64,000 nucleotides of DNA, from positions 1 to 64,000 of the forward strand of contig JAIVFI010000019.1 of the NCBI GenBank assembly GCA_025558095.1. Reading direction: 5' to 3'. Shown here piece by piece: positions 17,726-56,604 of this stretch (position 1 is the stretch's first letter; each line of letters begins with the position of its first letter). Source of the DNA: Hyaloraphidium curvatum. Lineage: Eukaryota > Monoblepharomycota > Hyaloraphidiomycetes > Hyaloraphidiales > Hyaloraphidiaceae. The notes below the pieces were generated by a model. It did not search any database. It was given only the letters and a program-made list of their open reading frames with translations, and was not told the origin of the DNA. The position numbers were made by a program, and so were the translations under genes.

Positions 17726-19388
17726 ATGAACGACACCGAAAGTAACCCCGCCGCCGCCGCCGAAACCGATGGCGGGGCGCGGGGAGCCCCAGCCTCGTCT
17801 GCCTCCCAAGACGCGGCCGGCGCACGGGACACCGACTTCACGCCCGAAGAATGGGCGTGCCTCTTTCCCGGCGGGACTCAGCCGTTCCGACCACTCCTGC
17901 CCGACGAGGAATCCGGGGATTCGGGGCGCGAACCCGCCGAAGAGTTCCGCAAGGCGCACCCCGTGACGGTCGAAACCATGCTGGCGGAGTTCGACGACCC
18001 GGTTCTCCGTTTCTTTGCCTTCCTCGGAGCCTCCCGGAGCGCGAGCTTCCTAGGGTGGAGGAACGCGGCGCAGATGGCCCTATCGTACACCATGGCGTTG
18101 GCCTTCCTAGCGCTGGCCTGGACGTGGAACGACGGCCGCTTCGGGACCAAGGAGATGGCAGCGGGCATAGCTTCCCTGGCGCTCATTTCTCTCGCGGCTA
18201 CTTGCACTGTCGTGCTCGTTGCGGTCGGCATGCCGAGGGTGCCAAAGGTGCTGGATTTCGCCCCACCGGCTGTACTCTGCAGGTGGCTGCAGCTGGCGAG
18301 GGAATCGGACCGGGGATTGCGGAAGCCCGGCGATCCGCCCGGAGGAGCACACCGTCTCGTCGGACACGAAGAGGGCGACCGGTTCTGCCCTTGTCCCGCC
18401 TGCGTCGGCAGTGTGCAGCGGCTTGCGGCCGGCATGACCTTCCTGGACGTCGTTCCCCTTTTCCTGATGCTTTTTTGTTCCCGGTGGACCGCAGGGTGGA
18501 CCACTTCGGTAACGTTTGGTTCCAGACTGTGGTCCACATGGTGGGGCCGCGTTCTCGGAGCAGTTTACAGTTGGTGGCCGATCGAATTGTCTTGGTAGCG
18601 CAGAAGTGCTTACCGACTCGCCTTGCGTCTGCAGTCTGTGGCGCTCTGGCTTCTTTCATGAACTCCTGCTCGCGGTTCGTCGGCGTGACCAACGCGGCGT
18701 ATGCCAAGCTCGAAGCGAGGCTGCACCACCGGGCCGTCGCGCTCTCGATGAGAGCGATGCTGCGATCCGTGCTCGGCGGCCGCCCGGTCGGCCAGGGCCC
18801 GTGGCTGTACGTGCGACTGCACCGCAGCTTCGCGTCTTGGTGCAAGATGCGTGAGATGCAGGACCAAACTTTGCTCAGCAACGCCGTGTTCGTCATAATA
18901 TTTCCGCTGACGGTCATCGCCATCATTGTTAATGTTGTAAGTAAGCCCGCGGACGGAGGATCGGGCATCTCGCGTGCTGACGCCGCTGCCGTCGCCAGGG
19001 CGCTGGGTCCTGCATCCCAGCGTGGCTCCTGTTCGGCGTCTGCCAGTTCATAGTGTACATGATCGTCAACACCGTCAACCTTGCCTCGCGCAACAACCTC
19101 ATCTCCGTCGTCGCATCGGCGTACCACGACGCCCAGCGGGACCTCCGGACCGCATGCCTCAGGCTCGGGCCGACCCCGCTCGCCGCCGCGCTGGAGCAGC
19201 ACGACCGGGTCATCGGCTCGTTTCTCGAGGTGTCGCGGTACAGCGCCAAGATCCTGGGGTTCACCGTCACGTACGGCGGTGTGCGAACGATGCTCGTGAC
19301 ACTGGTCACCCTCACGGTGGCCCTGTGGAGCGTGTTCCGGTCCCTGGGAGTGTTCTTCACCTTGGAGAGCTTCTGTCCCGTTGTGTAA
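17726..19388 (+). CDS. Seven-helix membrane protein A (novel family)
   Basis: A 511-residue member of a family present three times in this window. Exons are 17726-18569, 18635-18936 and 18999-19388; all joins keep frame and align without gaps to protein C. The start at 17726 is MNDTESN. Order: acidic leader, FTPEEWACLFPGG (about 38-50), helices near 113-133 and 144-168 flanking WNDGRFG, a long loop with CPCPAC (221-226), helices near 238-255 and 275-292, a second long loop, a close helix pair (AVFVIIFPLTVIAIIVNV; then GAGSCIPAWLLFGVCQFIVY), a third loop containing QHDRVIGSFLEVSRY, and a last helix ending in TLESFCPVV. Seven helices with a short C-terminal tail recall the insect Gr/Or-like (GRL, DUF3537) ion-channel superfamily, but that is my structural guess. 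Family membership is firm; function is unknown. Confidence 0.8.
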
Positions 19389-19764
19389 TGGGGGTTGAGC
19401 CCGCGAATGGAAGATAGCCTGCTCGTTATCCGAGCTCGAGGCTTCGAAGGCCAGTTGGCGACAATGGGTGGCGGCACGGCAGGAACCAGAATCGTCGCTG
19501 GCGTGGGTTGGGATCGCCCTCACCGTCGCGGTCCCGGCGGTCTCGGAGTCCCATTTCCTCGCTCCGTTTCCATTCGGGCACGGAAGTAAGACGAAAGAAC
19601 TGCATTCACCATTGTCGAAGACATCGAACGCTTTTTCACCAGCTGGCTCCAACTTTTTCGCGCGCCCGGCGCAAGACGTCTCCCGCGTTCACCTCCATCC
19701 GTTCCTGCCCGCCCGTCCCGCCCCCCCGGGATCGCCCCCATAACATCACCCTCCGCAAAGGGCT
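19389..19764. other. Intergenic between convergent genes
   Basis: 376 bp between the stop codons of seven-helix gene A and the bZIP gene. It should hold both transcription ends. No gene seen. Confidence 0.5.
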
Positions 19765-21254
19765 TCACGACCGGCCCCCCATCAGCAGCGCCTCCAGCTC
19801 CCCCACCCTCCCCCTCAGCATCTCGTTCTCCCCCTCCAGCTCCGCCACCCTCCCCTCGAGCCACCCGACGTGCTCCCTGCGCCTCTCCCTGCTCCTGCGC
19901 GCGGCGGCGGTGTTGCGCGAGCGCTTGGAGAGGATGTGCTCGACGCACTGCTGCCTCTGCTGCGGGGACAGCGAGGCGGGGGGGAGGGAGAAGAGGAGGT
20001 GCGAGGCGGTGGAGAGGACCTTGGGGGCGATCTGGTCCTCCGCCGAGGCGGGGCCGCGGGGCTTGCCGCCGGCGGGCTTGCGGGCGCGCTTCCTGCGCGG
20101 CCCGGCGTCCGAGTCCGAGTCCGGGTCGGAGGAAGGGGTGGGCGAGCGCGCGGGGCGGCGGCTGGCCTTGCGCTTCGGGCGTCTGGCGGAGGGGCCGGAG
20201 GAGGGGGGGGCGGGGGATTCGGGGGAGGAGAGGGCGTCCATGTCGTCGTCCTGGTCGGCGGGGGTGTCGGGGGCCTGGGAGGCGAAGCCGAGGAGGATGG
20301 GGGCGACGGAACCGCCGCTGTGGTCGCTGCGCGGGGTGGAGATCTTGGGCGTGCCCTGCGCGTTGCTGTCGGCGGGGGAGTCGGGCTGCGGGGGGCCCGG
20401 GTAGGGAGCGGAGAATGCCGAGGCGGAGAAGGCCGAGGCGGGGAAGAGCCACGCGGCGCCCTTGAACGCCGAGGGGTCGAAGGTGGCTTCGCCGACGAGG
20501 CGCGAGTCCGAGACGGCGCGCGGGACGCCAAAGTCCGGCGCGATGCCGAAGGCCGGCTGCACGGGGGCGACGGCGTCGAGCGAGCGCGCGGCGCGGGTGC
20601 GGAAGCTGGCGCCCTGCTGCGCGTCGAACGGCAGGCCGGCGGCAAAGGGCAGCGGCATGCCGGCCAGCGGGGGGAAGAGGGGGACGGAGGCGGCGTAGGG
20701 CTCGGCAAAGGCGATGGTGCCCGAGGGGACGAAGCCTGCCGGGGGGCGGGGGACACGTCATGTCAGCGGGTGCCGGAGAAAAGCCAATAGGGGGCCTTTG
20801 ACCCACCGGAGTCCATTGTGTCGCTGCGCACGTGCATGCCGGGCTCCGTGAAGGGCGGCAGGCGGGCGTCTGCGCGGAAGAGCGGGTCGATGAAGTCGTC
20901 GTTTGCGCCGGCGGGGTCGTCGCAGTAGTCGACGAACAGCTCGGTGGAGGCGAGGCGGAAGGGCGCCAGTGAGTCTGCGCGGAAGGAGGGCGCGGCGGAG
21001 GCGGCGGGGGCGTCGGGGAGGGCGGGCGGGCGGGGGGCGTCGGCGAGGTGTGCGGCGGCGGCCCCCCCCGCCGGCGGCGGCGCGGCGGGCTCGGCAATCC
21101 CCGGCGCGGGCGCGGGCATCCCGGCGGAGTGCGGCTCGGCGGCGTGCGCGGCGGGGGGCGTCCCGGCGGCCGGGGCGGAGTGGGCGACTTGGCGGGCGGC
21201 GGGGCGGCGGGCGGCGCGGGGCGGCGGCGGCGGCGCCATCGCGGCGGCGAGCAT
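19765..21254 (-). CDS. bZIP transcription factor, Gcn4-like
   Basis: A 472-residue nuclear protein with exons 20807-21254 and 19765-20735 on the minus strand. The 71-bp intron has donor GTGGGT, branch GCTGACATG and acceptor GGCAG, joining MDSGFVPSGTIAF in phase 1. The last 55 residues are a classic bZIP: basic region SKRSRNTAAARRSRERRR, with the N-x2-A-A-x2-S-R signature of Gcn4/CpcA-type proteins, then leucine heptads WLEGRVAELEGENEMLRGRV ending ELEALL. Ahead of it are an S/P/D-rich stretch and two basic clusters (RRPKRKASRRPAR; GPRRKRARKPAGG) likely to act in nuclear import. The N-terminal half is Ala/Pro-rich with an acidic patch FVDYCDDPAGANDDFIDPLF typical of activation regions. The start is ATG 21254 (MLAAAMAPP), or 21239. 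Confidence 0.88.
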
Positions 21255-24200
21255 TCTCGGAGGCGGTTCGGGTAGGAAGTCGGGGTTGCTGCGATTCGAT
21301 TCAAGCAAACGTCCCGAGTGTTTTGGACTTGGCGGTGCCGGTGCCTGGACTCTCCTCAGCCCCCTGCCGATCGCGGTGCGGCAAGCGACGTCACTTTCAC
21401 TCGCTCCCCGGGGCTCTACACGCCGCCGCCACGCACGGCCCTCACCCGCGAACGCGTCCCGCCCCACAGGCCGCAGCTAGCTCCCCCGGGCCTGCGTTAC
21501 CGCGGATGCCTGGGGGCTTCCAAGGAACGGACCCTAGGCACGCTGATTAAGCTCCTCACTCCGACCCTCTCCTCACGTGCTTCCCCGCCCAGCACCGCGG
21601 GCGCCGTCGTTCGGCCCCGTCGGCCCGCGCTCCACCCATCAATCACTTGCGCCCGCCACCGCCCGTGCCTCCGACGCCGCGGCCGACAGGCCCGCGTCCG
21701 CTTCCCCGCCCGCCCGGGGCCGGCCGACCGCCGGACCGCCCCCCCGATTCCCTGTCCGCGGCCGCCGGGACCGCGCCGCCGCCCGCGTCCGCGTCTCCAC
21801 AGCTCGCCGCGCCGTCCCCGACACCCCCCGCCGCCTCCCATCCATCGCCGCCCCGCCCCGAGGGATGCTTCGCCACACGCCTCCCATCGCCCGGATCCAG
21901 GCCCCGAACCTCCGTTGCAGCCGATCCACCCTGTCCTCCCTCCTTCCGCGCAGCAATCCGCCCCGTCGTTCCGTCGGTGATCGGCGCGATGTCCCGGGTG
22001 GCGCGCGGGAGGTCCGATCCGCCCGTCCCGCACGGCCGGCGGCCGGTGGCCGGTCCAGGGGGGCCTTGCGGCCCTGAGGCGGCGCGGGGAAGCGGACGGG
22101 GTCCTGGACTTCAAGATCGAGGCGGGATCGCGGCATCGGGCGGAACAGGGTGCGCGTGTCGGGGCAGGGTGGCAGAGGGGGAAGGAGGGGCGTCGGACCT
22201 TCTTGGTGCGTCGGAGGGATTCGGGATGCTGGTATTGCCCGCGCGGGGTCGGGGTCCTCGGCACGTACCTACGCGATCCGCGCGGAATCGAACGCCCGAT
22301 GCCGCGGCGGCGAAGCCCAAACTTCCCGCCGCGACCATCCCCGTGCGCTCCGTCTCGTGTCGATACTTGCCGTGCTGTTCTCCGTCCATACGCACCGGAT
22401 TTCCCTTTTTGGATGGCGATTCGGACTCGCGTCCGGGCTTCCCGTGAGACGGGAACCGTCGACCGCCTCGGAAGCCACGGGCCAGGTCATCGATCGAACA
22501 CCCGCACCCATCACTGCCCCTTAGCTCGCACCCTGCGCAAGACAGGAAGATGGCTACGAGGCGGCGGAGAGCTCCCGGTGTCGCCGGGAGTGATTCGCTG
22601 CCAGCGCGCCGCCGGCGCCCCGTCCTTACGCGACGGCGCACGAAGGATACGCCGCGCCGGCGGCGCCGCGGCTTCCGCCCCCGGTTCCGCGTGTTCGCGT
22701 GGGGGACGGAACTGTGCAGTGGACGCGGGAGGAAGACCGTGGGGGACCGAGCCGCCGCGGGTGCCGCTGCGACGCTCCGGACGCGTCCGAAGCGCAGCGT
22801 TACGTTTCCCGTTGGGGGAGCGGTCTACCTGTCACGACGATGGACAACCTTGTGTTCATGCAGGGCGCCGCACACGCATGGAATAGCTGTCCGCGTTTCG
22901 GACGCCGGGCGCGGGAGGAAGCACATGTGCAGGACAGGGCCGCCACGGGTTCGTCCGGTGGCGCTCCCGACCCGCATCGGGAGCACTCGGAAAGAGCCGC
23001 AGCGGCATCGGTCTACCTACCGCGCCCTGTGATCTCGCATGGCGCTGCATGGTCCATTCGAACGGAGGCGCGCGTCGGACGGCGAGACGCTGCCGATCGC
23101 TGTCGGTAGTTCTCTCCCAATCCGGCCCGCGCCGCCCTTTGGCCGCGCGCAAGCGACGAGGGCTTGGAACCTGCGCAAAGACATTTTGCGCTGCAACCGG
23201 GGGGGAAGCCAGACACAAGAGGAACCTCGGGGAGCACAAAGCCGGCGCGTGGACCACGCGCGCTCGCGACCGCCGGCATGCTGGACGGACCGACCGTTTC
23301 CACTCCGTTTGCAGATGTGGGAGCCGGCATTCCGCAGCGACGCTCTGGTCCCTTCTGTGTACGGGACTAGGGGTTTCGAGGGGATGCCGGCGCCTACGGG
23401 GGCCATCGAAAGGGCTGCTGTGCGGGGGGCGGGGGGGCCGGTGCTGCGGGACCGGTCCTCTCCGGGCGCGCATTAATCTCGCATTGGAAGTGGTCCTGGA
23501 TCCTCCCGGCCTTTGCCATGTATACAGTAAGTGCCCGACAGTCGGCTTTGGCCGGCGGAAGTGCTACCCTCGCTCCCGGTTCGTGCCGGGCGTGAGGCGT
23601 ATAGCCACTCTCCGCCGGCACGCCGGCCGCCGCAGGCAGCAAGTGACTGCTCCGCGGCATTAAAGGCACCGGCGCAGTATCCCCGGTAATGGACAGTGCG
23701 GACCCGGAAGCCGGGAATGTGGCATCCACAGGGCGAGTCGGCCGGATGTGCCCCAACGCACCGGACCCGTGGGGTCCGGTATGTCGGGCGCCACCGGGCC
23801 GGCATCTCCACGGGTAGTACGCGGGATGAGGGACCTCTCGAAGGGCATGTGGTAAAGCGGCCCTCCTCGATGCGGCGGCCGCAGCTCCGGGCCGCAAAGA
23901 GCGGGATCGAACAGTCCCCGCCCGCCGACAACCCGGTTACCGTCGCCCGCGAAAGCACAGGCCGGTCTGGGCCGGGGCGTCGGCGAGGCGGAACGCGATC
24001 GCATCGCCCGCACAGCCACGCCCTACCAAAACCCCTGCACCGCCCGCGGCCCGCCCGATCCCCTGTCGCGTCCGGCGCCGTTGCGGGTGGCCGCGGACGG
24101 CCGCCGCCGCCGGACCGAATTTCTTGGTCGCCATCCACGGAATTCCGACCGAGTACGAGCGGCCACCGGCGGACGGGATGTTTGCCATAGGGCTGCCCCC

Positions 24201-25022
24201 GCCACGATCCGATTGGACCGTGCTGAGCTCCCCCGACCTCAAACCAGCGCTCGCCCGGGGAATCCGATCGCGACCCGCGGAATATCTAAGGAAGATGCTG
24301 CGTCCCCAACCCCTGTCCGTCAGGGTTTGAGGGACGTCGGTCTGGGCCTGCCGAGGCGCGTTTTCTGAGGTATGGGGGACAGGGACATCCTCGTACGCGG
24401 CGAGCATCGGAAAGGCCGTGCTGGTCGATTTCAAACAACGCCGGCTCCGCAGCCGCTCGCCCACCTCGACGGCTTCCGCGATCACCATCGGGGACCCGCA
24501 AGGTGCATCCGGGTCTGCGGGTCGAATGCCGACCAGTCGGCCGCGTCCCCTCGCCGACAGGGGACGTGGCCGACAGGGCCGCGTCCTTCCTACTCACCCC
24601 GGGGAAGTGGTGGAGTGCGGCTGGCGGTGCATTTGCGGTGGCCGCAGGGGCCGCATCGTTGCTGCGGCGGCCTGGCCCGGCCGTTCAGGGCATTGCGTTC
24701 CCGAATGGCGACTTTGGGGGCGGCGGGGATCCGAGCGAAAATGCGATCGGACGCATTGGAGAGCGGAAGAAGGCCCGGGAGAGGTCGGTTGAGGTTGGCA
24801 TTGGGCTTGCTGATGCATGGTAGCCGCGGTGCTGGGCCATCTGGGCGGGACGATCGAGGCGGGCGGGGACCCTGAGCGGGGGACCTCGTCGGGCGGTCGG
24901 CCGAGCGGTCGGGATGAGCGACCCTGGCGGCCGATCAGCTCCGAAAACTATCGGCATTCGGGGACGACGCCAGTCGACATCGGACGAGAGCGGAACGCCG
25001 GCACACCTTTCAGTACCGAGAA
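21255..25022. other. 3.8-kb gene-poor stretch
   Basis: The longest empty interval in the window. Open frames exist on both strands because the DNA is GC-rich, but none shows domain-like sequence, sensible splice pairs or family similarity. The first few hundred bases are the bZIP promoter side and are rich in CCG/CGC. A degenerate direct repeat may be present at 22700-23060. No transposase, integrase or terminal repeat was recognised. It may be regulatory, a decayed element or a non-coding RNA locus. Confidence 0.5.
22690..23060. repeat. Possible degenerate direct repeat, about 187 bp
   Basis: Matching words recur in the same order about 187 bp apart: gcgggaggaag then ggac-g-gccgcc-cgggt (around 22727 and 22912), an agccgcagcg/aagcgcagcg word, and cggtctacct (around 22824 and 23009). 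Between the words similarity is poor. This looks like an old tandem duplication, but chance in GC-rich DNA is not excluded. Confidence 0.3.
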
Positions 25023-27030: not shown

Positions 27031-28616
27031 ATGGCGTCCTCGCTCCCGAAACCCGCCTCGCTGACAGAGCACGAGTGGCTGGCCCTTTTCCCGCGGCCGG
27101 CGGCGGGAGGAACGGGTCCAGCGTGGGCCGGGACGCCGCCGGACCCGGCAGCCGCCCTGAGGATTTCCGACCCGCTGACCGCCTCGGCGCTCCTCGCCGA
27201 GCTCCCGCCGGCGCTGCGCCTTCTGACGCGTGCCCAGCTGGCCGTGTGGCCGCTCGGGAGGCTCGCCGGCGTGCTGCAGTGGCTGTACAACCTCGCGACC
27301 ATCGGTGTCCTGGCATCGGTCTGGCCGCTGAACGACGGGCGGTTCGGGAACGCGCAGATCGCCGCCGGATTCGGCGCAGCCCTCGCGGGCAATCGCCATG
27401 TTCTTTGTGGTGCCCCTCCTGGGCTCGACACAGGGTGCATTTACCGGCACGGTCGAAAGCGCGGGCGGGAACGACATGGGGGGACACTATCTCGCCGGGT
27501 TCGCCCGGTGGAAGCAGCTGCTACGGACCCGGGGCACCGTTGTGGGACCTGACTCCGAGACGGGAAAGGGCGACGGGGCAGCAGCTTCTCCGCTCGTGGC
27601 CCACGTCGACAAGGACCCGCTGTGCCCCTGCGACCGCGCGTCGTGCGCCGGCGGTATCGCCCGAAGAGCAGGCATCCAGCAGGTGGTGAAGCTGGCCGCG
27701 ACTTTCCTGGTGTGGTTCTCGTGGTTCGTCCTCCTCCGGTGGACCCCGTTCGTCACTTTCGCGGAAGGCTTCTGGACGACCTGGTGGTCGGCATTGCTCG
27801 GCGCTCTCTGCGGTGAGCTATTGAGCAACGACATGGGAACCTCAATTGACGTATCTCGCTCGTCATCGCACTACGCGTACCCCAGTGCTCACTCTCCTTT
27901 TCAATTTCGGTCCCAAGGCCATCAGCACCATGTCGACATGTTCCGCTCTCCTCGGCCTCCCCCGGCGCCTGGGCATGCGCGCCGCCAACATCGCATTCAC
28001 CTCCTTCTTCGAACGCTTTGGCCTCGCCCTCGAGGGCGCCGTCCCCGAAGCCGACCTCCCGTCGCTGCTCGCCGGCCGGGAGCTCTACGTGGACCTGCAC
28101 CACCAAACCGCCGCCGCGCTCCCCTGGGGCATCGGCGTGCCGATAGTCGGCGGTCCCCTCGCCTTCCTCTCCCTGGCAGGCTTCGCCCTCTGGGCCACCG
28201 CCAACGTCGCCGCGGGCTCGTGCATCCCGCTCGCCTACATCGTCTTCCTCCTCTGGGCCGCGTGCTTCTTCCTCGTGGACCTGTCGCTGACCGCGGTGCA
28301 CAACCGCTCCATCGACGACCTGGCGGGGTCGTACCGCGACGCGCGGCAGCGCATCAGGCTGATGCTCGCCTCGGCCGCGCTGCGGAGACCGCCGCCCCCG
28401 GCCGAGATCGTGGATGCCCTGCGCGCCCACGACGCCGTGCTAGAATCGTTCCTGGGCTTGGAGAGATACCGCGCGGGGCTGTTTGGGTTCCCGGTATCGT
28501 TCGCGCTGCTAAGGACGCTGGTGGTGACCGCGGCCACGGTGGTCGTGGGGCTGTGGGGCATCCTCAGGGGCCTGGGGGTGTTCGTGACGGTCGAGACGTA
28601 CTGCCCGAACCGATGA
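27031..28616 (+). CDS. Seven-helix membrane protein B, frameshifted
   Basis: Second member of the seven-helix family, about 503 residues if one base is discounted. Exons are 27031-27812 and 27886-28616 (73-bp intron, phase 1). The start ATG at 27031 has a strong context (gccgccatgg). Conserved parts: [37 protein letters not shown] in the second loop, the SCIP helix pair ([18 protein letters not shown]), [17 protein letters not shown], and the C-terminal last helix ending TVETYCPNR. The frame breaks near 27391: the family alignment continues only if one A is ignored, giving ALAG then [11 protein letters not shown]. No intron can explain it, because any usable donor would remove the conserved NDGRFG. 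So it is either a recent pseudogene or a sequence error. It converges on the peroxisomal gene 71 bp away. Confidence 0.72.
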
Positions 28617-28687
28617 TCCGCGCTTCCGCAATAGACGTCTGTGACAGCTCGTCTTTTTCTGATAGAGCGACATACAGCGCCCACTGC

Positions 28688-31411: not shown

Positions 31412-31653
31412 GTCTCCGCCTCGCCTCTGACGATTCGTGGGGGAGTGAGGGGGCCGGAACTCCGGAGAATCGTCGGTCGCCCGAGGGAGCTTCGGCACGT
31501 GATTTGCCGATTTCCCCCTCCCGGACCTTTCGCACTTGGAGAAATAGCTCTATAGAACCTGGATAAAGCGTTCTAAACCACAACACTCCACTCAGAGGCT
31601 ATAGATGCCCCCGGCGGGCATGGTACCCGCAACCTGCCTCCCGATCCTCCCGC

Positions 31654-41506: not shown

Positions 41507-43807
41507 CTAGTAGTACCCCCACACCCCGCCGTTCCCGATGTTCGCGGAAACATGCAGCGCCTCCGTCCCGCAGACCCTCAACCCCAGCTTCCGCGCGTAA
41601 TCCACGACGTAGCGCTCGAGATCGTACATCCCCGCCCCTCCCGCCCCCTCGAGCACGCCAAGATCCACGCCGCGGAACAGGTCCGCGAAGTGCCGCCCCC
41701 GCATGGCGAACAGGAACGTGAGCAGCATGTCGCCGCCCGGCCGCAGCACGTGCAGCTTCTCGCGGTCGAGGTACCAGCTCCCGAACGTCCGCGCCCACAC
41801 GTCGCATTCCGGGTGGGACGCGACGAACCGCAGGAAATCCGGGCGCGCGAGGCGGTACCGCCCGCTGAGCTTGACCACGATCGCGTCGGGCGCATCGAGG
41901 GCCGCCGCCGCCGGCTCGGGGGACGCCAGGAACCTGTTCAGCGCGAAGGCCTCCCGCGCCCCCTTGTTCCGCAGGGTGGCGGGCACGTCCGGCACGCAAA
42001 CCGCGCGGGTGAACGGGAACCGACGCGGCAGCTCCCATCCGCAGGTGGGGTCCTCCGAATACACGGCGAAAGAGCGGGAGAAAAGGGGCAGCGCGAACTC
42101 GAGGGCGGTACGGTACTCCTCCTCGCGGGTCGAAGCGAGCTCGGCGAGGACGGATTCGTTGTAGTGCACGACCAGCGATGTGTCCGAGGGGGCCGCCATC
42201 GTGGCTAGGAGGATGAAGTTTTGGGAAAGGCGGAAGGCACCCGCATCGAGCCCCCGGGAGTCGACCTGTTCCGGGTAGGTTGGAGCCGTCCGCGGCCGCC
42301 GGCGGTCCTCGTCCATGCCGGATCCCGCTTGCCCTTGTGGATGAATCCCCGTTTGCGGCGATATGGCTTCCGTTCCGATTTCGTGCCGCCTGACTTGAGC
42401 GCTTCCCATCTCCAAGAAATGCGCAAACGTCTTCGTCACAGCCCAGTCAACGTAGTTTCCACCGTACTGCTTCACCGCGTGCTCCTGCGAGCGATGCGCG
42501 AGCTCCTTCCGGAACGCTTCATCCTCGGCGAGCAGGCACATGTGCCCGGCGATCTCCTCCACCTCTTGCTTGGAGCTCGGAATGTCCGGGTGCACCGAGT
42601 GGAGCAGCGCGTACGTCCCATTGGGCGTTCCGGCTCCCAGCATGTCGAGCGTGCCGCCGACGCCCGACGCCAGCGCGGGCAGCCCGGCAAAGAGGGCTTC
42701 GAGCAAGGCAAGGCCCCACGACTCGCCGTCCGCCTGCGCGTTGCTAACGAAAACATCCGCGGCTGCCAGGTAGGCCGGGACCTCGGGGGGAGGGACCCCG
42801 CCCCGCAGGACGAACTGCGGGTGCGTGAGGGTCCACCGAGTTTGCTGGTCGGGGAACACTCCCCGCACGGGCTTCTCCGCTGCCATGTGGGAACCGAGCG
42901 CGAGGATGCGGATGCGTGGGTGGGCGGCAGGGCAAAGGTAGCGCGTGCGGTTGAAGGCGTGGGCGACGCCGGCGTGGCCCTTGTACCAATGGAAGTAGGA
43001 CAGCATCATGAATACCACGGCGTCGGAAGGCAGGCCGAGGGCGGAGCGGATGCGCTCCCGCTGGGCGGTGTTGCCCCGCGCTTCGAGGAGGGGCTTGGCG
43101 CGCCAAGGCGGCATGCCCCAAGGCAGCGTCAGGCTGTGTGGGAGCCGCTTCAAAGCTCGGGGGCCGAGCTCGCCGGCGAGATAGGCGATAAAGCTGGCGC
43201 GTGCGGATGGAGAGATGAAAATGATGCTAGTGACGGTTCCCCCTGTTGCTGCTTCAAAGACTTTGAGGCGGTGTTTGGTGTGCCAGTGGCGGAAGAGTGT
43301 CCCGCCCTCGTGAACCCAGAAGACGACGGCTTGATTGGGGCGGCGAGTGTAGGAAAGAAGGAAGTCGACCGAGGCGGGGGCCGTGGTCGACACGACGACG
43401 ATCTGCGCCTGGGACGCGACTTCGGCCGGGTCCCCCGCATAGAAGCCGATGCGCTCCGCCGCGGTCCCTTCGAACGCCCCTATGACGGTCGCCCTGAACC
43501 GCGCCTCCAGCCGATCCGCGGCCGACGCGCCCTCGGGCTCGCCCTCCGCGGGCTCCAGCTGCCTGGGCGGCACGTGCAGCGCAACCCGTGCGCCGCGCCG
43601 CGCCAGGATCGCCGCGAGCTCGGCGCACACCCGCGGCGCGCCGGTGGCCGTCATCTCGTGCGAGAGGATCGCGATGCGCACGCCGCGCAGTGGTCCGTCG
43701 GGGGCCGCGGGGGCGGCGGCCGGGGGCGGTGCGGGGCCCGGCCGCAGCGGGCCGAACGCCGCCATGGCGAGTGCCGCGACCAGCGCGGTCCGGAGCCGCA
43801 GGCCCAT
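41507..43807 (-). CDS. GT4 glycosyltransferase fused to a second domain
   Basis: A 766-residue single-exon protein. An N-terminal signal-anchor (TALVAALAMAAFGPL) leads into a GT-B fold glycosyltransferase: VRIAILSHEMTATGAPRVCA (nucleotide-sugar glycosyltransferase opening), FHWYKGHAGVAHAF, and the GT4 C-lobe signature ADVFVSNAQADGESWGLALL then EALFAGLPALASGVGGTLDM. After a poorly conserved linker (about 500-555) comes a separate 200-residue domain (VVHYNESVLAEL; IVVKLSGRYRLARPDFLRF; DMLLTFLFAMRGRHFADLF) that resembles WavE/LPS-type small glycosyltransferase domains. The two activities on one chain would act successively on the same glycan, by inference. The architecture looks bacterial, and the lack of introns in a gene of this length is notable here. 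Confidence 0.78.
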   Translation of the reverse strand: MGLRLRTALVAALAMAAFGPLRPGPAPPPAAAPAAPDGPLRGVRIAILSHEMTATGAPRVCAELAAILARRGARVALHVPPRQLEPAEGEPEGASAADRLEARFRATVIGAFEGTAAERIGFYAGDPAEVASQAQIVVVSTTAPASVDFLLSYTRRPNQAVVFWVHEGGTLFRHWHTKHRLKVFEAATGGTVTSIIFISPSARASFIAYLAGELGPRALKRLPHSLTLPWGMPPWRAKPLLEARGNTAQRERIRSALGLPSDAVVFMMLSYFHWYKGHAGVAHAFNRTRYLCPAAHPRIRILALGSHMAAEKPVRGVFPDQQTRWTLTHPQFVLRGGVPPPEVPAYLAAADVFVSNAQADGESWGLALLEALFAGLPALASGVGGTLDMLGAGTPNGTYALLHSVHPDIPSSKQEVEEIAGHMCLLAEDEAFRKELAHRSQEHAVKQYGGNYVDWAVTKTFAHFLEMGSAQVRRHEIGTEAISPQTGIHPQGQAGSGMDEDRRRPRTAPTYPEQVDSRGLDAGAFRLSQNFILLATMAAPSDTSLVVHYNESVLAELASTREEEYRTALEFALPLFSRSFAVYSEDPTCGWELPRRFPFTRAVCVPDVPATLRNKGAREAFALNRFLASPEPAAAALDAPDAIVVKLSGRYRLARPDFLRFVASHPECDVWARTFGSWYLDREKLHVLRPGGDMLLTFLFAMRGRHFADLFRGVDLGVLEGAGGAGMYDLERYVVDYARKLGLRVCGTEALHVSANIGNGGVWGYY

Positions 43808-47700: not shown

Positions 47701-50689
47701 GCCGGAAGAACGGCTCCGCGTTGATGTAGTTGGCCAGGTCCACGTTGACCTCGACCCCCTCGGCGCCTCCGGCCCCGCGGCAGTGCACGATCCCGGCCAG
47801 CATGCCCGACTTGACCTTGGCAAACAGCGCGCCGTCCGCGTCCATCTCGTAGAGCGACATGACCTGCAGCCTGTTCTCGGGCATCGCCCCCACGTGGCGT
47901 AGCCGGATCACCGACGACACGTACTCAGCCTTGCGCGCCCGACGGCCGGGCGTGGGCTCCGGCGTCGGCAGCGCGCGCGGCCGCCCCTCGTCGTCGTCGT
48001 CGCCGTCGTCCCCGGCGGCCCCGGCCTTGCCCTTGCCCGCACCTCGGCCCGAAGCGCGCGGCGACGTCGGTCCCCCCGACGTTCGTGGCGGCGGCGACGC
48101 GGGCCCCCTCCTCCCCTTGGGCGACCCCGCCCCTCCGGTCCCGCACTGCCTCCCCTCCAACCCCTTCCCCAAATCGGGCCGGTAATACCTCTCGAAAGCC
48201 TCCACGATCCCCATCGCCGCCACCCTCCCCCACCGCTCCCACGTCGCCGCGTCCACCTCGGCCCGGCGCACCTGCAGGTCGAACCCCTTGCCGTAGTGCG
48301 CGTGGTCCTCGTACGCCGGCCTGCGCGGCGGCGTGGGCGTCGCGGGCGAGGGGCGCGGGGACGCCGTGTCGCCGGCATCCGAGTCCGAGTCGGAATCGCC
48401 GTACGCGGCGGCGATCTGCGCCAGAGGCGCCGGCAGCTCCTTCCCCATGGCAATGCCCTTGGCCTTCCTGGGCCTGGGCGTCGGCGCCGGCGTCCTCTCC
48501 CTCGCCCCCCTTTCATCCTCCTCCCCGTCCCGCTCAAAGAAATCGTGCGGCGCCTTGCGGATCTCGTCGATCCTCCCGGCGGACCCCCCCGAACTGCTCC
48601 CGCTCCTCGCGCTCGAAAGCCGCCCGGTGGGGCTCTCCTTCCCCACCCCCCTCCCCCTGGGCTCGCGGCGCACGGTCTCGAGGAACGCCGCGTGCGGGTC
48701 CTGCATGTACCGCAGCACGCGGTCCGTGTCCTTCCCCACGACGATGTTGGCCGCGGCGCCGATGGGCGTGACGGCCGCCGACGTGTAGAGCAGCCTCGAT
48801 GGCGGCGTCGCGGCCGGGGAGCCGAACGACGCGCGCTTGCTCGACGCGACAAAGGTCGCATCCGAGGGCTCCCCGCCCAGCGGCGGATGCTCCGACACCT
48901 TGCCCCCCTCCGCCTCCCTCTTGACCGCCGCGCCCGTGCCGCCGGGGGTGCGCTGCGGCGTGCCCATCTCGACGAGCCACAGCGCCGCCACCTTGTCCGG
49001 ATCGGGCTTGGTCGAGGGCATCGGCGACCCGTCCACGAGCATCGGGTACCCGGGCGACGGCGCGCCAAAGTCAATCAGCAGCTGGAGCAGCTCCTCCTCC
49101 CCCAGGCCGTCGATGGCCTCGGCCTCGGCGGCGTGCGCGGCCAGGTCCGCCGCGGCGTCGAGATCCGTGCGCACCAACCCCGCCATCTGCGCGTCCTCCG
49201 CGGCGGGCAGGACCGCCGGAGCCGCAACGGGCTGCACCCGCTGCAGCACCTCGTCCTCCATCACGTCGTCAAACTCGTCCTCGGAATCGCTCACGCTCCT
49301 CGCCCTCCGCCCCTTCTTCCTCCTCCCCCCCTGGCTCCTGCGCTTCTTGCGCACCGGGCTCCCGTAGTTCCCGTCCTCGTCCTCCTCGCTCCCCCCGCTC
49401 CCCACCGCATCGGAGCTCGCCACCCCGGGGCCGGGCAACAGCCCCTCGGCGTAGAGGGAAGCCTTGCTCGGCCGCCCCCTCTTCCTCTTCCCGGCGCCCG
49501 CGGACGGGGGCACGACGGGGTCGTACTCCGGGTCCTCGTCCGACAGCGGGCCGGAGGAGCGGGTCTTGTGCCGTGAGGTGGGTTCGCCGCGGGAGGGCCG
49601 CGAAGGGCGCGGGATGCGGGGTTTGGGGCGGGGGTGGTCGGGGATGGGGGACCCGGGGGGTTCGCCTTCGCGGCGGGGGCGGAGCTGCCGTTCAACGATA
49701 TTGTCAGCAGCGAAGAAGAGGGGAAAGGATGGGCGACCCACGATGACGATGGTGTCGTCCAGGTCGGGAAGCAGCCGCTCGTCCACCCCCGTGTGCGGGA
49801 TGCGGAGCGCCAGCCGCGCCTCGGGCACCTCGGCGACAGGTATCGGCGGGTCGTCCTGGTCGACATAGTACCTGTCGCGCGGGGCGGGTCAGCCGAATAC
49901 CGGGGGAGCAAAGGAGAAGGGGGACGGTACCGGAGCTTGCGCTCGCCCTCGTTGGCCCACTTGCCCAGGATCGGCTTGCGCGGCGGGTTGTGCTCCGAGC
50001 AGCGCTTGAAGTGCTGCGAAATCCTCGAGGAGACGGTGGCGTGCGGCGTGTTGCCACTGCGGGTTCGAACAGAACCGCTGAGCCCGACGATGCCGGCCTC
50101 CCAGCAGGATAGGAACCCACCCCAACAGCGCCACGTTCCCCTTGAGTATCATCCCGCTCAGCTCCCTCGGCGTGGCGGGCGTGTTGCCCGTGCGCATGAT
50201 GACCTTGATGATGGCCGCAAGCACCTTGTCCCGCGCGTCGTCCGGGTGGATGTACACCGTGACGCGCGGGCGGTCGCCCGCCGGCTGCGGTGCCGAGGAT
50301 GCGGGTGCGGGGGCATCCTGCGAGGTGGATGGTGCGGCGGCGTCGGAGGATTGCGGGCGGGGAGGGGAGGAGGAGGCGTCGGTGCGCGGGGGGGCGAGGC
50401 GCACGGGGGGAGGGGAGCGCGCGGGGGGCGGCGGGGAGAAGGCGCGGGAGCGGGTCCCAGCGGGATCGGGAGAAAGTGCGCGCGCGGGGGAGTGCCGCAG
50501 GGGTGCGCCCGGCGGGGAGCGGGGGTGGGCCGGGTGCGCCGGGCGGGGCTGCCGGTCGGGCGAGGCGTTCTCGCCGTCGGGGCGCTTTTTCGCGGGTGCG
50601 GGCTTCGTAGATGCGGGGGGCGGGGGCAGATCGTTGCCCCGGGGGGTCGAGCCGGGCCCCGGCCCCGGCAGGGCGGTGTCCAGTTTCAT
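44747..50689 (-). CDS. GDS1-type winged-helix nuclear protein, very long
   Basis: A 1,898-residue nuclear protein. Exons (minus): 50121-50689, 49931-50056, 47430-49871, 46223-47370, 44747-46158 (the last acceptor could lie 6 bp further, at 46164). The start is ATG 50689 (MKLDTALPG). Residues 151-237, built from the first three exons, form a GDS1-like winged helix: TPRELSGMILKGNVALLGGN, TPHATVSSRISQHFKRCSEH, then KPILGKWANEGERKLRYYVD. The block DTIVIVGRPSFPLFFAADNI follows. The rest is low-complexity and acidic/basic (RKKRRSQGGRRKKGRRARS; SDSDSDAGDTASPRPSP) with scattered ordered patches (AYEDHAHYGKGFDLQVRRAE; KIKIRKKPGLLGTWIPL). All junctions keep frame. Likely a chromatin or transcription regulator; fungal relatives are poorly characterised. 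Confidence 0.78.
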
Positions 50690-51877
50690 CTGCGTTGGGC
50701 TGCGGGGAAGGGTCAGCGTCGGGCGTCCCGGCAGCACCACGAGGCCCGGCACGCAGGTCCTACGGCTTGCCGGAGCCGCAGAAAATCCGCCCCGGCCGCC
50801 CGTGTCGCCCCAAACAGCACCTTCAGTCAGCCTTTGAGGGGGGCAAAAGGGCGCGGCGTCGTTTCGGTGTCGGCCCTGCGGGGCATACCAGGCGTCCTGC
50901 GCGGCGGCAAAACGACGGGCGGTTAGAACAAGCCCAGTAATGCCAATAGGCGCCCCAGAATGGCCCGGCCGTTGCCGGGGACGGCGGTGCCCCACGCCGC
51001 CCCCCGCGTCCCGCGCCGCCGGCCGCCCCCCGCGCCGGGCGCCCTGCGCCGCCGCCACGCCGCCGCATGCGCCTCTGCCCGCACCCTCCGCGCCGCAACC
51101 CCGCCGCGGCATCCCCCGCGCCGCCCGCCGGCCCGCCCGTCCCGGTCCCCCGCAGACTCCACCGGCCGCCCCGCCGCCCTCTCAACCCGCCCCGGTCTCG
51201 CTCCGCCGTCAACTCCTCCGCAAAACCCCAGCCAGCCAGCCCGCAACATCCCGGCGTGCTTACCTCGCTCGCAAGGGGGCGGGGGTCGGGGTGTCGCGTG
51301 CGTTTTGCCGGCGCATCTGACCGCTCAACGGCTGGAGGGCGCGCCCGGGACCCGGTCGGCGCCGCACAAATAGGCACGATATGCCACGGAGAACGGGGAA
51401 AGAGGGAGCGGAAAAGATGGATAGGGAGGTGATTGGTTTGCTGGGCGTTAATGGTGGGGATTGGAGGCAGATGGGGCCGTGGAAGGAGATGGAGTGATGC
51501 GGCGCCAGTTCAACAAGGCCCCGCGCTCCGGTTTCCTGTCCAGGGAGCTCTATCGTACATCATTTGCGGCAATCTAACAAGAGCGGTGCCGTCGATCGGG
51601 GGAGGGAGGGTCTCTGGGCACGGGTGGTTGCCCTTGCCACATTGGCCCCGCCGGGGGATCGGCGCCGCCGACTTTGCGTCCGGGCATCCGGCAGCAGGTC
51701 CATTGGACCCGGTCGCTCTGCTATCCGAAACGGATCTGTTCACTTCACCGAAGCGGGCCGTTGTGGGCGTGGTGATGGCCGCCGCTAATCGAAAGCCTTC
51801 GAGCGCATCCGATCTGTTCGATGACTTGATGGGAGCCCACTTTAGTCTCTATCTTCTCGTTCTCGCCCCCGGTTTAG
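50690..51877. other. Intergenic, no gene seen
   Basis: 1.19 kb. The first 600 bp are extremely CCG/CGC-rich and produce long arginine- and proline-rich frames on every strand, none credible. Presumed promoter of the GDS1-like gene. Confidence 0.5.
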
Positions 51878-52051
51878 TTCGGCTCCGGGTCCGAGAACGA
51901 GTCGAGATACGGAACGACGCTGAAGGCGTTCAATGGGTCGCGGAGGTGGACGGTCCGCGAGGTGGCGGTCGTGGCTGGGGTATTCAAAAAGTACGGCTTC
52001 AAGGTCAAGCACGCGGCCAAGGACTCGGCGCTGATCTTCCGGGCGCAGTGA
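51878..52051 (+). CDS. Possible terminal exon, unknown protein
   Basis: A 57-codon frame that reads like real protein (SENESRYGTTLKAFNGS; WTVREVAVVAGVFKKYGFKV; KHAAKDSALIFRAQ, stop at 52049-52051). It starts right after a good acceptor (ccggtttag) and an in-frame TAG sits inside the would-be intron, so it behaves like a last exon. I could not find a matching upstream exon; the ATG at 51773 (MAAANRKPSS) is the nearest candidate. Family not recognised. It may be a gene remnant. Confidence 0.35.
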   Translation, partial: FGSGSENESRYGTTLKAFNGSRRWTVREVAVVAGVFKKYGFKVKHAAKDSALIFRAQ

Positions 52052-52878
52052 ATGATTTGGAGCGGGATTTTGTCACAGACTTGTTCTTTGTTCCTGAGGA
52101 AGAAGAGAATGTATTTGTTCAAGTACTTGTTCTCCCCGTCGGAGTCAGTACATCTTTTGGATAGCCGGGGCTTGCGGTCCCCGTCCAGTCCAGTTCCTTT
52201 CCGCTCTGAAAATGAACTGAACATTGCCGAGGAGAGGCCAGCTTTAAAAGACATGGATGATGGCTCTGGGTTGCTACCGAAGCGGCTCTCGGCATCGCAG
52301 GGAGCTGGTGAGGCCCACGGATGGCGTCGGGGTTGCAAGCTATGAGCAACGAAGCCGGCACCGCCCGGAGCATGCTGCTGGCGACGCCCCGCTCACCCGA
52401 GCCAGAGGCAGAGGGGGGGTTGGACGAGGGGACTGTCCTCCGTCGCTTCGCTCCGTCGTCCCCCCGGGGTCGCGGCGAACAGCGCCCGAATCCTCGATGC
52501 GCGTGCAAGCCAGAAGCACCTCTTTTAGCATGATCCATTTACGAGGACGATTGCGGCGCAGGTATGGCTCGCTGGTCTGAAGGCATGGCTGTAGCGTTGA
52601 GTAATGGCCGAGTATTGCCTTTTGCCGGCAAGACTCGACTATTTACTTTGACGGGGTGAGGAAACAGGGAGAGCACCAAGGTCCCACATTGGAGCCGTCT
52701 TTCGGCCAGTTCGACACGTTGCGCGACTGAAGTATCGGGGTGACGGTGGCAAAGCTTGGCGGTGCAGGAGTTGTTGCAGGAATCGGCACAGCCCGCGTTC
52801 CGAAGAACCTTCGCGGAGGCAGCGACGTAATTGTTCTCTCTGCTCAACAACTACTCAGCTTCGTTTCCACCGTCTAGA
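52052..52878. other. Intergenic, no gene seen
   Basis: 827 bp, less GC-rich than average, without a convincing gene. Holds the promoter of the mucin-like gene. Confidence 0.5.
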
Positions 52879-54361
52879 ATGGGAATGGCTGCTCCGGGCC
52901 CGCTCCGCCCCTTCAAGCGCTCGCCCCGTGCCGGAACCGTCGGAGCCCTGTTGTTGGCTGCCGCGTGCGCCTTCCTGCTCGCCGCCGCGGCCCCGACCGC
53001 AGCCGCACAGTCTGTGACCGGCTACATCAACTTCCCCGGCCCGGGCCGGTCGAATCCCGCGAACCCTGCCGCGAACAGCCTCTGCATCCCGCAAACGGCC
53101 GTCAACCTGCCCGCGCTCGGCGTGTACGATGTAACCCTCACGGGCTACTGGTGAGATTTCGTGGACCCCGGAACCTACTTTCGGCGACCCTCACATTTGC
53201 GGTCCGTTCTAGGATGAACGGAGGGCGGTTCCCGCGCGACGCGGCGTTTGTCGGTCGATGTCCCGGAAACACCGCCGCATCGGGTCCCATTTTCGACAGG
53301 TGCGGGACTTGATTCGAAAAGCTGTCTGCCGCCGCTTGATAGCCCATCCTGTAGCGTGCACAACTTCTACGGCTACTTCCGCTGCAACGTCAACGGCGCG
53401 ACCGGCGGGACTCCCGATCTTCTCGAGTGGGTCAAGCTAGCCGAGAGCGCCGCCGCTGGAACCGTATTCGTCAACGTCGGTACTCTCCGGATCCATCCCG
53501 ATCGTGCCTTACAAGTCCTTTCAACAGGGCCAGTTCGTCGACTGGGGTTCCACATACAGCCCGGTGCAAACCTACACCAAGAGGCTGACCTTCACCACGT
53601 CGCCGGTGCTCCTCGGCGTGCGCGACACGCTATGCGAGGACAATATCGACAACGTCACGACGGTGGACCCCAATATCCGAGCTCAGGCGTTCGGCGCGCC
53701 GGGTATCGCCTTCTCCTTCTCTTTGGTGGCCACCGCGGTGGGATGCCGGAGTATCGTTGCATGACGTGTGATCCTCTCGCTCACAAGCGTGTTCTACCAG
53801 ACGGCCACCGCGACGACAACCACCAGCCAGAGCACCGCAACCGCCAGCGAGACGCCGACGCCTAGCACGACCAGCGAGACGCCGACCACCACGAGCGAAA
53901 CGCAGACGTCGAGCACCACAAGCCAGACCTCCTCGGTAAGGCTGCAGCTTCCGCTGCGCAGGATGGCTCGGTGTGATCGTGTTTTCCATGACCAGACGAC
54001 ATCGAAGACCACGAGCGAGACGCCCACATCGACGAGCGAGACGCAGACCCCGAGCACCACCAGCGAAACCCAAACGCCTAGCACAACCACCCAGACCTCT
54101 TCGGTAAGGCGCCCGCCTCCGTCCTAAGCGTTACTTGTGCGATCACCTGTCCTCTCCTCCCAGAATACGGCGGCTCCGACTAGGACAACATCCCGATCGG
54201 CGACGCGCACGCGGACCGCGAGCCGCACCCGCACGACGACGATCAGGTGCAGCCGGCGCAACGGCAGGGGGAAGTGCCGAGGAAGCGGCAAGGAGGATGA
54301 GGACAAGGATGACAAGGACGACAAGGAGAAGGACGACGACGATGATGGAAAGGACGATTAA
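52879..54361 (+). CDS. Secreted mucin-like Ser/Thr-rich protein
   Basis: A 376-residue predicted secreted or wall protein built from seven exons: 52879-53150, 53213-53299, 53355-53475, 53528-53737, 53801-53935, 53996-54103, 54164-54361. The start ATG at 52879 leads to a signal peptide (GALLLAAACAFLLAAAAPTA). The N-terminal domain (about 40-230) has cysteines in LCIPQ, RCPGN, RCNVN and LCEDN, and is of unknown family. Exons 5 and 6 are near-duplicates encoding SETPT/SETQT/STTS repeats, each ending TSS at an identical phase-0 donor (tcg|gtaagg), so the repeat grew by exon duplication. The last exon encodes an R-T repeat (SATRTRTASRTRTTT), a basic CSRRNGRGKCRG patch and a Lys/Asp tail (EDEDKDDKDDKEKDDDDDG). 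The Ser/Thr region is probably heavily O-mannosylated. No GPI signal is seen. Confidence 0.72.
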
Positions 54362-55098
54362 GCCCCAAGCCCATGGTGTTCGGCGACCGGTAGCGAAAAG
54401 GCGGCGGCCGCCCATTCATGACTTTCTAGGACACAAAGCGCATTAGAGAGGAGCTGGAATTCGCTTCATTCGTTGCGCTCTACGTGATCGTTATTGAACA
54501 TTGCAGCATGATGCCTGAAGATCCGCGCCCTGCTGCAACCTGTCATCGCATGCCATCCATATTCTGGATGATCACGACAGGTCTTACGTCCTTCGTGTGG
54601 CTTCATGTATCTCGGAGTCGGAAAATCAGAGCGGCCTAAACGAGGGGATGACCTGGCAGTGGTGATCTGGCCGTTGGCGGAAGCCGCCTCTCCGAATACA
54701 AAAAGCGCCCGGTCTCCTGAGGCCGGCGGCCTCCTGCCCGCTCCAGACACGTCACGAGGCCTAGGCCGACCCGGGTCTGGACCCTCGCCGCATTTGCAGA
54801 AACGCTTGTTTGCAGAATTGGGGCCCCGGCGGGGCTCCAACCACGGCTCGCCCTTGGGCCCTTTCGGGTCGGCGCGATGAGACGGCGCGTCCGCGGCTGT
54901 CCGCAACGACGGCCGCGGCCACCCACGCGCGGGCTCCCGCGTCATCGGTTGCGGCCAACGGGCGGGAGGCCGTCAGGTGCCCTGAAGCTGGGTTGGCCTC
55001 CGGTGGGCCCGTCCGGTCTCGGACGTTTCATGCGCTCCAAAAAGGAAAGCAAACGAAAGAATTGCGCCGAAACGACAGGGCAGAGGCAATGGTCCCAT
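54362..55098. other. Intergenic between convergent genes
   Basis: 737 bp between the 3' ends of the mucin-like gene and seven-helix gene C. No gene seen; no tRNA-like fold recognised. Confidence 0.5.
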
Positions 55099-56604
55099 CT
55101 AGAACAATGGACACACGCTCTCCATCGTCACGCGCACCCCCGCGGCCCTCAGGACGCTCCAGAGTCCTAGCAGCACCGTGATCCAGCTTGCCGCGATCCC
55201 ACGCACCGTCCCGTACCCAACCGTGATGCCGAGCACGCGGCGGCGGTACCGCGCCGACTGCTCCAGGAACAGGCCCAGCACGGCGTCGTGCGCTGCGATC
55301 TCGCCTCGGAGCGAGGGGGACGCGGCGCCGGGGTCCGCCGGTGCGGCAAGCATGCGGAGGGAGGCCTGCGCGGAAACGTAGAGGTCCGTGATGGCGTCGA
55401 TCTGCAGGTTGGACTCGGCGATGTAGACAAGCTCGAAGAGGAAGTAGACCGTGAGGCAGCCCATGGCCAGCAACTGCCACAAAGCTACGCAGTTTCCGAC
55501 GGCAACGTTCAGGATGAAGGAGGCCGCGATGGCGATGAGCTGCAGTGGTGCTACGATCTGAACCATGTCCGTGGTTCCGAACCGGGAGATCCAAGCCTGT
55601 ATAAGCGTGCGGTGCAGGGTCTGATATTGCCAATACAATTCCATGGCCGGTTTTTCCTCGGAGTTTGCCTGGTCTGGTTCGCGCAGCCGGTCCCGCAGCT
55701 GTCGCAACGAAGCAGCCATCGCCCGACGTTGAAGCCTGCCACGAAAGCGGGCCATGGGCACGGTGTTCACCACCCCGACCCGGGACACGTCTGAGGTGAT
55801 GCCGGCCGCGAGTAGGGCCAGGAGGAACAACGTGCCGAAAGCGGCGCTCCACGGTGTGCTCCAGAATCTTGGGGCTAGCGAGAACCACATGGGAGTTGAG
55901 AATGCCGCAAGTTGCGCCGGAAAAACCGTCGCCAGGAGCATGACAAAGTCCAGGATCAGCCAGCGGAGGTTGCGGCGCGAAATTCGGCCGCAGCAGGACT
56001 CGCGCGGGCATGGGCAGCGCTTGTCGCCCGGGTCGTGGTACGTCAGAACGACGTTGTCGGATTCCCCAGTCGAAGAGACCGACTTGCACAAAAGGCGCCA
56101 CTGCAGGAACCCATAAGCATTGGCAAAGGCCAAGAGACGCGTCGGGTTGGCGCGAACGGCTGCTGCTTCGCCAGCGCCGATTTTGAACCTTCCGATGCGG
56201 GAGTGCAAATTGAACGACACGGGTCGTGTCAGCAGGTAGAGGAAGATGGCAGTGTATCCGACGCCCAGCTGCGGCGCCGCGAATAGGGACGGCGGGGCGA
56301 GAAGGAGGGCTGCCGCCACGACGGGCACGGCCAGCGCGACCGACGCCAGGCCGAAGGCTCCGAGCCCCGTGGCGCCCAGCGCCGGCCACGTGTCGACCAG
56401 GAATTCGATGTACTTGGCGCGGATCCCCATGCCGGCGGCGCGCAGGAGGCGCGTGGTGCCGGCGTAGGACGAATCGTCGCCCACGCGGAGATCCGCTGCC
56501 GGGTCCACCGGCGCTTCGTCGACGGCGTATACCGAGGCGTCGAACACGGGCAGCATGGGGAAGAGCACGAGGAACTCGCGCGGCGTGAGGACGAGGGGAG
56601 GCAT
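55099..56604 (-). CDS. Seven-helix membrane protein C (novel family)
   Basis: Third member of the seven-helix family, 501 residues, single exon; genes A and B carry introns. The start at 56604 (MPPLVLTPREFLVLFP) puts the conserved LFP motif at the N-terminus. Approximate helices: 77-103, 106-126, 213-235, 254-270, 348-368, 372-395 and 465-485. CPCPRESC lies at 197-204 in the second loop. Between helices 4 and 5 is a charged amphipathic loop (RFRGRLQRRAMAASLRQLRD). The pair of helices 5 and 6 is separated by only a few residues (FILNVAVGNCVALW). The third loop contains AAHDAVLGLFLEQSARYR, and the chain ends RVTMESVCPLF. Long loops between helices 2-3, 4-5 and 6-7 would all lie on one side, probably cytoplasmic. 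Function unknown. Confidence 0.82.
   Translation of the reverse strand: MPPLVLTPREFLVLFPMLPVFDASVYAVDEAPVDPAADLRVGDDSSYAGTTRLLRAAGMGIRAKYIEFLVDTWPALGATGLGAFGLASVALAVPVVAAALLLAPPSLFAAPQLGVGYTAIFLYLLTRPVSFNLHSRIGRFKIGAGEAAAVRANPTRLLAFANAYGFLQWRLLCKSVSSTGESDNVVLTYHDPGDKRCPCPRESCCGRISRRNLRWLILDFVMLLATVFPAQLAAFSTPMWFSLAPRFWSTPWSAAFGTLFLLALLAAGITSDVSRVGVVNTVPMARFRGRLQRRAMAASLRQLRDRLREPDQANSEEKPAMELYWQYQTLHRTLIQAWISRFGTTDMVQIVAPLQLIAIAASFILNVAVGNCVALWQLLAMGCLTVYFLFELVYIAESNLQIDAITDLYVSAQASLRMLAAPADPGAASPSLRGEIAAHDAVLGLFLEQSARYRRRVLGITVGYGTVRGIAASWITVLLGLWSVLRAAGVRVTMESVCPLF

Follow-up and report, generated by a model that had tools for sequence, protein, structure and literature searches.

What are the seven-helix membrane proteins encoded by three related genes of Hyaloraphidium curvatum, and do they belong with the seven-transmembrane ion channels (7TMICs), the class of the insect odorant and gustatory receptors (Or/Gr)? 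The genes, A, B and C, lie in a 64,000-nucleotide stretch of DNA, hereafter the window, which comprises positions 1 to 64,000 of contig JAIVFI010000019.1 (assembly GCA_025558095.1; C19 in our contig numbering). An earlier note, made from this DNA alone, had described them as a three-member family with an Or/Gr-like layout. The present analysis reveals a far larger family that is tentatively read as a hugely expanded set of oligomeric chemosensory channels, 7TMIC-like in build and equipped with a metal site in the cytosol, a reading in which the architecture is supported and in which we infer kinship and function.

The relatedness of A, B and C is borne out by their reading frames, by family hidden Markov model (HMM) scores of 374 bits for A and 395 bits for C (the HMM includes C itself) and by E values of about 1e-90 between C and its best paralogues. 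At the level of sequence, these values confirm homology far beyond chance, and every landmark that the earlier note had listed as shared, such as the CPC motif and the G-[SN]-C turn, was found in A, B and C. Gene C (55099-56604, reverse strand) is a single exon with an uninterrupted open reading frame (ORF) of 501 amino acids and provides the reference numbering. Gene A (17726-19388, forward strand) encodes 511 amino acids in three exons (17726-18569, 18635-18936 and 18999-19388) whose spliced frame is open, so that both proteins lie at the upper edge of the 7TMIC range of about 350-500 residues. Its first intron (18570-18634, forward strand) falls inside transmembrane helix 4 (TM4) and was the top-scoring of the GT-AG candidates tested, with inferred boundaries; the second (18937-18998, forward strand; GTAAGT...CAG, with a textbook donor) directly precedes the G-S-C turn that joins TM5 to TM6. 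Gene B (27031-28616, forward strand) has two exons, separated by an intron in TM4 (27813-27885, forward strand; GTGAGC...CAG) near the position of the first intron of A. Its frame is disrupted in TM2 by a single surplus base near 27387, within a GGG run (window 27381-27400). Since every tested GT-AG intron that restores the frame deletes TM2, B is either a pseudogene or the product of an assembly error.

How large is the family? The count of three is contradicted by searches of the window's own genome (31.9 Mb in 55 contigs), which returned 87 matches with C as query, 82 with a divergent member and 150 with the last exon of B. After merging, the matches resolve into 216 or more separate loci, spread over 45 of the 55 contigs; locus counts are lower bounds, because scoring covers only the best candidates, and pairwise capture-recapture estimates range from 180 to 300 loci. 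Full-length frames were intact in 73 of 86 loci of a first batch and uninterrupted in 120 of all 140 loci fetched, a fraction that is biased by the selection of the second batch for long frames; some loci have no single intact frame. The 120 intact members share a mean pairwise identity of 28%, with a minimum of 19%. Ratios of nonsynonymous to synonymous substitution (dN/dS) of 0.19-0.48 across the 22 most similar pairs indicate that the family members are real proteins under purifying selection of moderate strength.

The distribution of the loci points to how the family grew. Specifically, 31% of them lie within 10 kb of another, compared with 13% expected (about twice random), and 32% fall in the outer tenth of either side of a contig, compared with 20% expected, as is typical of recognition families that evolve fast. 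Because several of the most similar pairs are near neighbours (for example C9:734k/737k, C6:171k/173k and C19:88k/92k), local duplication is a likely motor of the expansion. Several last-exon matches with identical scores also occur on different contigs (C30:61802, C48:17351, C46:131389, C46:147120, C17:659815 and C47:105286), pointing to recently duplicated segments or to haplotype redundancy among the contigs.

The layout proposed for the three proteins, with seven helices, a cytosolic N-terminus, long loops on one side and a short tail, now extends to the family at large. An alignment of 73 members displays seven hydropathy peaks. Lysine and arginine density in the helix flanks is 0.116 on the presumed inner side and 0.043 on the outer side, and the inner value is the higher one in 117 of the 120 intact members. 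The inner segments are long (on average 74 residues for the N-terminus and 81, 76 and 67 for the loops) and the outer ones short (loops of 8, 11 and 3 residues and a C-terminal tail of 14). This charge bias, together with the segment lengths, predicts a seven-helix topology with the N-terminus inside and the C-terminus outside. An inner N-terminus and inner loops that exceed the outer ones in length are criteria applied to 7TMIC proteins in a 2020 survey (PMC7746228).

Which residues does the family hold constant? Counted over the 120 intact members and numbered as in C, five are invariant (C197, C199, C204, C372 and N399), and a further five are nearly so: H190 and C498 (119 of 120 each), G459 (118), T476 and R294 (117 each). 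Three of the cysteines and the histidine form H190-x6-C197-P-C199-x4-C204 (55993-56037; like all features of C, on the reverse strand) in IL1, the long loop that connects TM2 to TM3 on the predicted cytosolic side. The spacing is mostly 6-1-4, and the near-invariance of H-x6-C-x-C-x4-C adds weight to the earlier note, which had singled out the CPC cluster as unfamiliar in the Or/Gr superfamily. The predicted topology places this cluster on the reducing side of the membrane, which makes a metal site plausible; from its residues, IL1 likely binds a metal such as zinc or holds an iron-sulphur cluster. On the predicted oxidising side lie Cys372, in the three-residue outer turn between TM5 and TM6 (55489-55491), and Cys498, its possible disulfide partner in the outer C-terminal tail (55111-55113), so that a disulfide between them is plausible. 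An AlphaFold model of residues 247-501 of C contains strands in this turn and in the tail, which would suit such a bond without proving it.

The same model offers a view of the helices, and its AlphaFold input consisted of the window's own sequences only, so that the other family members did not enter the alignment. It contains helices at residues 274-308, 318-342 with 346-369, 375-420 and 430-452, followed by an extended break and a last helix at 464-487, with pLDDT values of 72-79 across much of TM5-TM6 and 66-77 towards TM7. TM5 and its predicted cytosolic extension span residues 318-369 (52 residues, 55498-55653), with a short break at 343-345, as judged from hydropathy, the model and covariation. 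TM6 with its extension spans residues 375-420 (46 residues, 55345-55482) and holds Asn399, according to the model and the alignment. A cytosolic helix with the HD-x-V-L motif (residues 430-452, 55249-55317, pLDDT about 65-72) is a candidate TM7a, and TM7 itself (residues 464-486, 55147-55215) is, by its conservation and polar stripe, a candidate pore helix 7b. In the published receptor structures, S5, S6, S7a and S7b comprise residues 287-339, 345-389, 395-409 and 424-444 of BmGr9 and residues 317-368, 371-415, 420-434 and 448-472 of MhOr5, which gives S5 lengths of 53 and 52 and S6 lengths of 45 and 45 residues (PMC11100771). The modelled lengths of TM5, TM6 and TM7b agree well with these, and the candidate 7a is longer (23 versus 15 residues). 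The secondary structure of this moderate-confidence model and the covariation described below agree with long TM4-TM6 helices that would reach into the cytosol as an anchor and with a TM7 that would be split into 7a and 7b.

Does sequence variation carry a trace of such an anchor? Pseudolikelihood couplings were computed from the 120 sequences. The strongest coupled pair, 331-409, links TM5 and TM6 in their cytosolic extensions and shares its antiparallel register (sum 740) with the membrane pair 360-381. Among the top 25 pairs, eight connect one putative anchor element (the extension of TM4, TM5 or TM6, or the candidate 7a) with another, compared with 1.3 expected (binomial p 3e-5), and no shifted labelling attains eight. 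The membrane part of the TM5/TM6 register band is enriched (p 0.0007); the band continued into the cytosol is not enriched overall (p 0.62). The top covarying pairs between transmembrane helices tend in the expected direction of equal depth, without reaching significance. For the insect proteins, 26 of 28 strong couplings in GRs, and most of those in ORs, fall within the anchor (PMC11100771).

TM7 is by far the best conserved helix, with an entropy of 1.63 bits versus 2.80-3.04 for TM1-TM6. It carries a polar stripe (R468, S/T473, T476, G480, S483 and R486) with a 100-degree period (p 0.005), and a basic residue stands at either end in 118 and 119 of the 120 members. Either a pore face or a packing face would explain the stripe. 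Thr476 (117 of 120) occupies the place of the T/S of the insect TM7 motif in an alignment by eye that is not validated.

The likeliest reading, though a tentative one, is that the proteins share the build and mode of action of the insect Or/Gr (7TMIC) channels: TM1-TM6 would form a variable bundle that receives ligands, and the cytosolic extensions of TM4, TM5 and TM6 together with the TM7a helix would act as an anchor that assembles the subunits, probably into tetramers. The ion pathway would be lined by the conserved helix TM7b, which carries the polar stripe and has basic residues at both ends, and the whole set would constitute a chemosensory repertoire made by local duplication. Two additions would be specific to the family, namely a cytosolic H/C/C/C site in IL1 that may bind zinc or an iron-sulphur cluster and serve a structural, stabilising or redox-sensing role, and an outer disulfide that may join the TM5-TM6 turn to the C-terminal tail. 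A bolder version, which we consider doubtful, would see an independently built repertoire on the scale of insects, with more than 200 ligand-gated channels of the 7TMIC type whose TM7 pore is possibly anion-selective or gated by redox state through the IL1 metal site.

Several observations weigh against a 7TMIC identity. Across 73 members, hmmscan gave scattered chance matches to Pfam and none to 7tm_6, 7tm_7 or DUF3537 up to an E value of 10. The sequences of Orco, Gr43a and BmGr9 were recovered through PDB searches and compared with the family by hhalign profile-profile alignment, which stayed at the level of reversed controls. The insect TM7 motif (T/S)Yhhhhh(Q/K/E)(F/L/M), even when relaxed to Y or F at position 2, occurs in 0 of 120 members, and no 7TMIC protein is known to possess an invariant cytosolic cysteine cluster. 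The structural models are weak (full-length C, pLDDT 49.5 and pTM 0.32; residues 247-501, pLDDT 62.9 and pTM 0.47, best over TM5-TM7), and Foldseek found nothing with an E value below 0.8 for either of them, as expected for weak models. The covariation signal has its own caveats: it comes from few sequences (120), the regions were defined after the first coupling list had been inspected, the anchor enrichment fades by the top 100 pairs (p 0.04), a mean-field version is weaker and pairs on the wrong side show no depletion past the top 30. Other comparisons remained equally silent. The family profile gave only chance matches to PDB sequences (best E 0.051), NCBIfam yielded a single short chance match (UrtC, 33 residues, 20 bits versus a cut-off of 576), and C found no relative among prokaryote and viral contigs. 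VIA-align 2, with 18 chains only, returned helical bundles and no Or/Gr chain among those listed. A first-pass search of the genome itself with 7tm_7 (PF08395) and DUF3537 (PF12056), made without candidates, found nothing and carries little weight, as no control was detected either. By sequence, then, the family is not recognised by any library searched (Pfam, NCBIfam and PDB).

How should these strands be weighed? The Or/Gr-like layout advanced in the earlier note stands as architecture (helix number, topology, loops, TM5/TM6 lengths, TM7 conservation and covariation); its implied kinship is not proven, with Pfam, hhalign, the TM7 motif and Foldseek all negative or lacking power. The modelling of C and the Foldseek search that the note had proposed produced low-confidence models and no match, and neither a different fold, nor a helix number other than seven, nor a known unrelated Pfam family emerged. 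A test with some power lends no support to sequence kinship with Or/Gr, given that the hhalign comparison of Orco with Gr43a and BmGr9 did detect their relationship (E 2e-4, 68% probability, C-terminal part). This result, the invariant residues without Or/Gr counterparts and the Foldseek outcome speak for lineage-specific seven-helix receptors unrelated to 7TMICs, which would have converged on an inner N-terminus and long cytosolic helices and would signal through their cytosolic loops rather than as channels. We regard this as nearly as likely as a 7TMIC-like channel family, yet it would make the TM5/TM6 lengths, the split TM7 and the anchor-like covariation all coincidental. The near-absolute conservation and mostly constant spacing of the IL1 cluster raise another possibility, that of a metal- or redox-handling membrane protein (a transporter, oxidoreductase or metal sensor) with H-x6-C-x-C-x4-C as its active part. 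However, TM1-TM6 hold no invariant charged or metal-ligand residues, no member among the 73 matches a Pfam transporter or enzyme, and more than 200 diverging copies would be more in keeping with the recognition of a range of ligands than with a single transport function; we judge this explanation distinctly unlikely.

Seven helices and a large expansion are also familiar from chemosensory G-protein-coupled receptors (GPCRs), but the positive-inside statistics described above predict that the N-terminus and long loops are inside, and the 73 members include no Pfam GPCR match. A GPCR identity was rejected on this predicted topology, and an N-out seven-helix receptor family of any kind is very improbable. 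Hardly tenable at all is the notion of non-functional DNA, whether repeats (decayed or resembling transposons) or ORFs that a GC-rich genome produces by chance: long chance ORFs are common in such DNA, and the extra base in B and the loci lacking an intact frame would suit decay, but 120 intact full-length frames, seven residues that are near-absolute at 28% identity and the dN/dS values refute it.

Further observations concern the setting of the family. The window contains an ORF at 5939-7576 (forward strand) that likely encodes a fungal transcription factor (Fungal_trans, 22.9 bits versus a cut-off of 23), a 766-amino-acid ORF at 41507-43807 (reverse strand) with group 1 and family 4 glycosyltransferase domains, an 886-amino-acid ORF at 2913-5573 (reverse strand) with a weak match to CC2D1A/B DM14 and an ORF at 49889-51112 (reverse strand) with a GDS1 winged-helix match above the cut-off. 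Elsewhere in the genome, tubulin matches occur at four places and dynein heavy chain AAA_8 matches at three (contigs C9, C16, C17, C2, C33, C38 and C4), and no IFT46 match was found, an absence that is weak evidence in such searches. The small number of tubulin and dynein matches together with the missing IFT46 hints that the lineage lacks a flagellum of the ordinary kind, and suggests few or no flagellar genes, unlike in a typical zoosporic chytrid.

What would such a family mean beyond this genome? More than 200 N-in seven-helix proteins with Or/Gr-like architecture in one fungus-like genome would imply either that the insect-type chemoreceptor fold has undergone a massive radiation outside animals or that a large receptor family of a new kind exists, and either outcome would open the study of fungal chemosensing at the scale of repertoires. 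A literature search found no paper on such an expansion, with Himmel et al. 2023 (Curr Biol) lying outside its coverage. In the 2020 survey of unicellular eukaryotes by Benton et al., fungal gustatory receptor-like proteins (GRLs) were single genes in two chytrids of the genus Spizellomyces, and the largest count was six per species (PMC7746228). A 2023 structure screen reported none in the fungi surveyed, which did not cover chytrids (PMC9998090).

Among known systems, DHHC palmitoyltransferases bind metal through a Cys-rich stretch that lies in their TM2-TM3 loop on the cytosolic side, and in this they resemble the family's IL1 with its putative metal site. The family nevertheless has seven transmembrane helices, not four, and a DHHC-like reading of the CPC loop was rejected because there is neither a DHHC motif nor, in the 73 members searched, a Pfam match. 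PAQR/ceramidase (CREST) proteins were likewise rejected, since no histidine or aspartate within any transmembrane helix is invariant. The insect receptors (Orco, MhOr5, BmGr9 and Gr43a) are alike in having seven helices, an inner N-terminus, loops that are short outside and long inside, S5 and S6 of about 52 and 45 residues, a split TM7 that is also the best conserved helix (for the family, the helix dimensions and the split come from the moderate-confidence model), covariation centred on the cytosolic anchor (putative in the family) and very large repertoires. Unlike them, the family has no sequence or profile similarity and no TYhhhhhQF motif, and it carries an IL1 of about 80 residues with an invariant His/Cys cluster, a conserved outer cysteine pair and a 14-residue C-terminal tail.

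A comparison by description with the GRLs of Spizellomyces punctatus and S. palustris sets one gene per species there against at least 216 loci here. Both groups are fungal with an N-in seven-helix layout (predicted for the family), and in the GRLs no more than a single position out of the four in the TM7 motif survives (PMC7746228), just as the threonine alone does in the family. The TM7 motif itself is considered diagnostic but not definitive (PMC7746228). Plant DUF3537 proteins (PF12056) likewise combine an N-in seven-helix layout and long inner loops with a largely unrecognisable TM7 motif, but their families are small (4-12) and no Pfam match links them to the 73 members searched. PHTF and trypanosome 7TMICs differ from the family, which has no Pfam match, in their domain make-up. 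Both set a precedent, as 7TMICs whose sequences resemble Or/Gr little or not at all and that were detected by structure only (PMC9998090).

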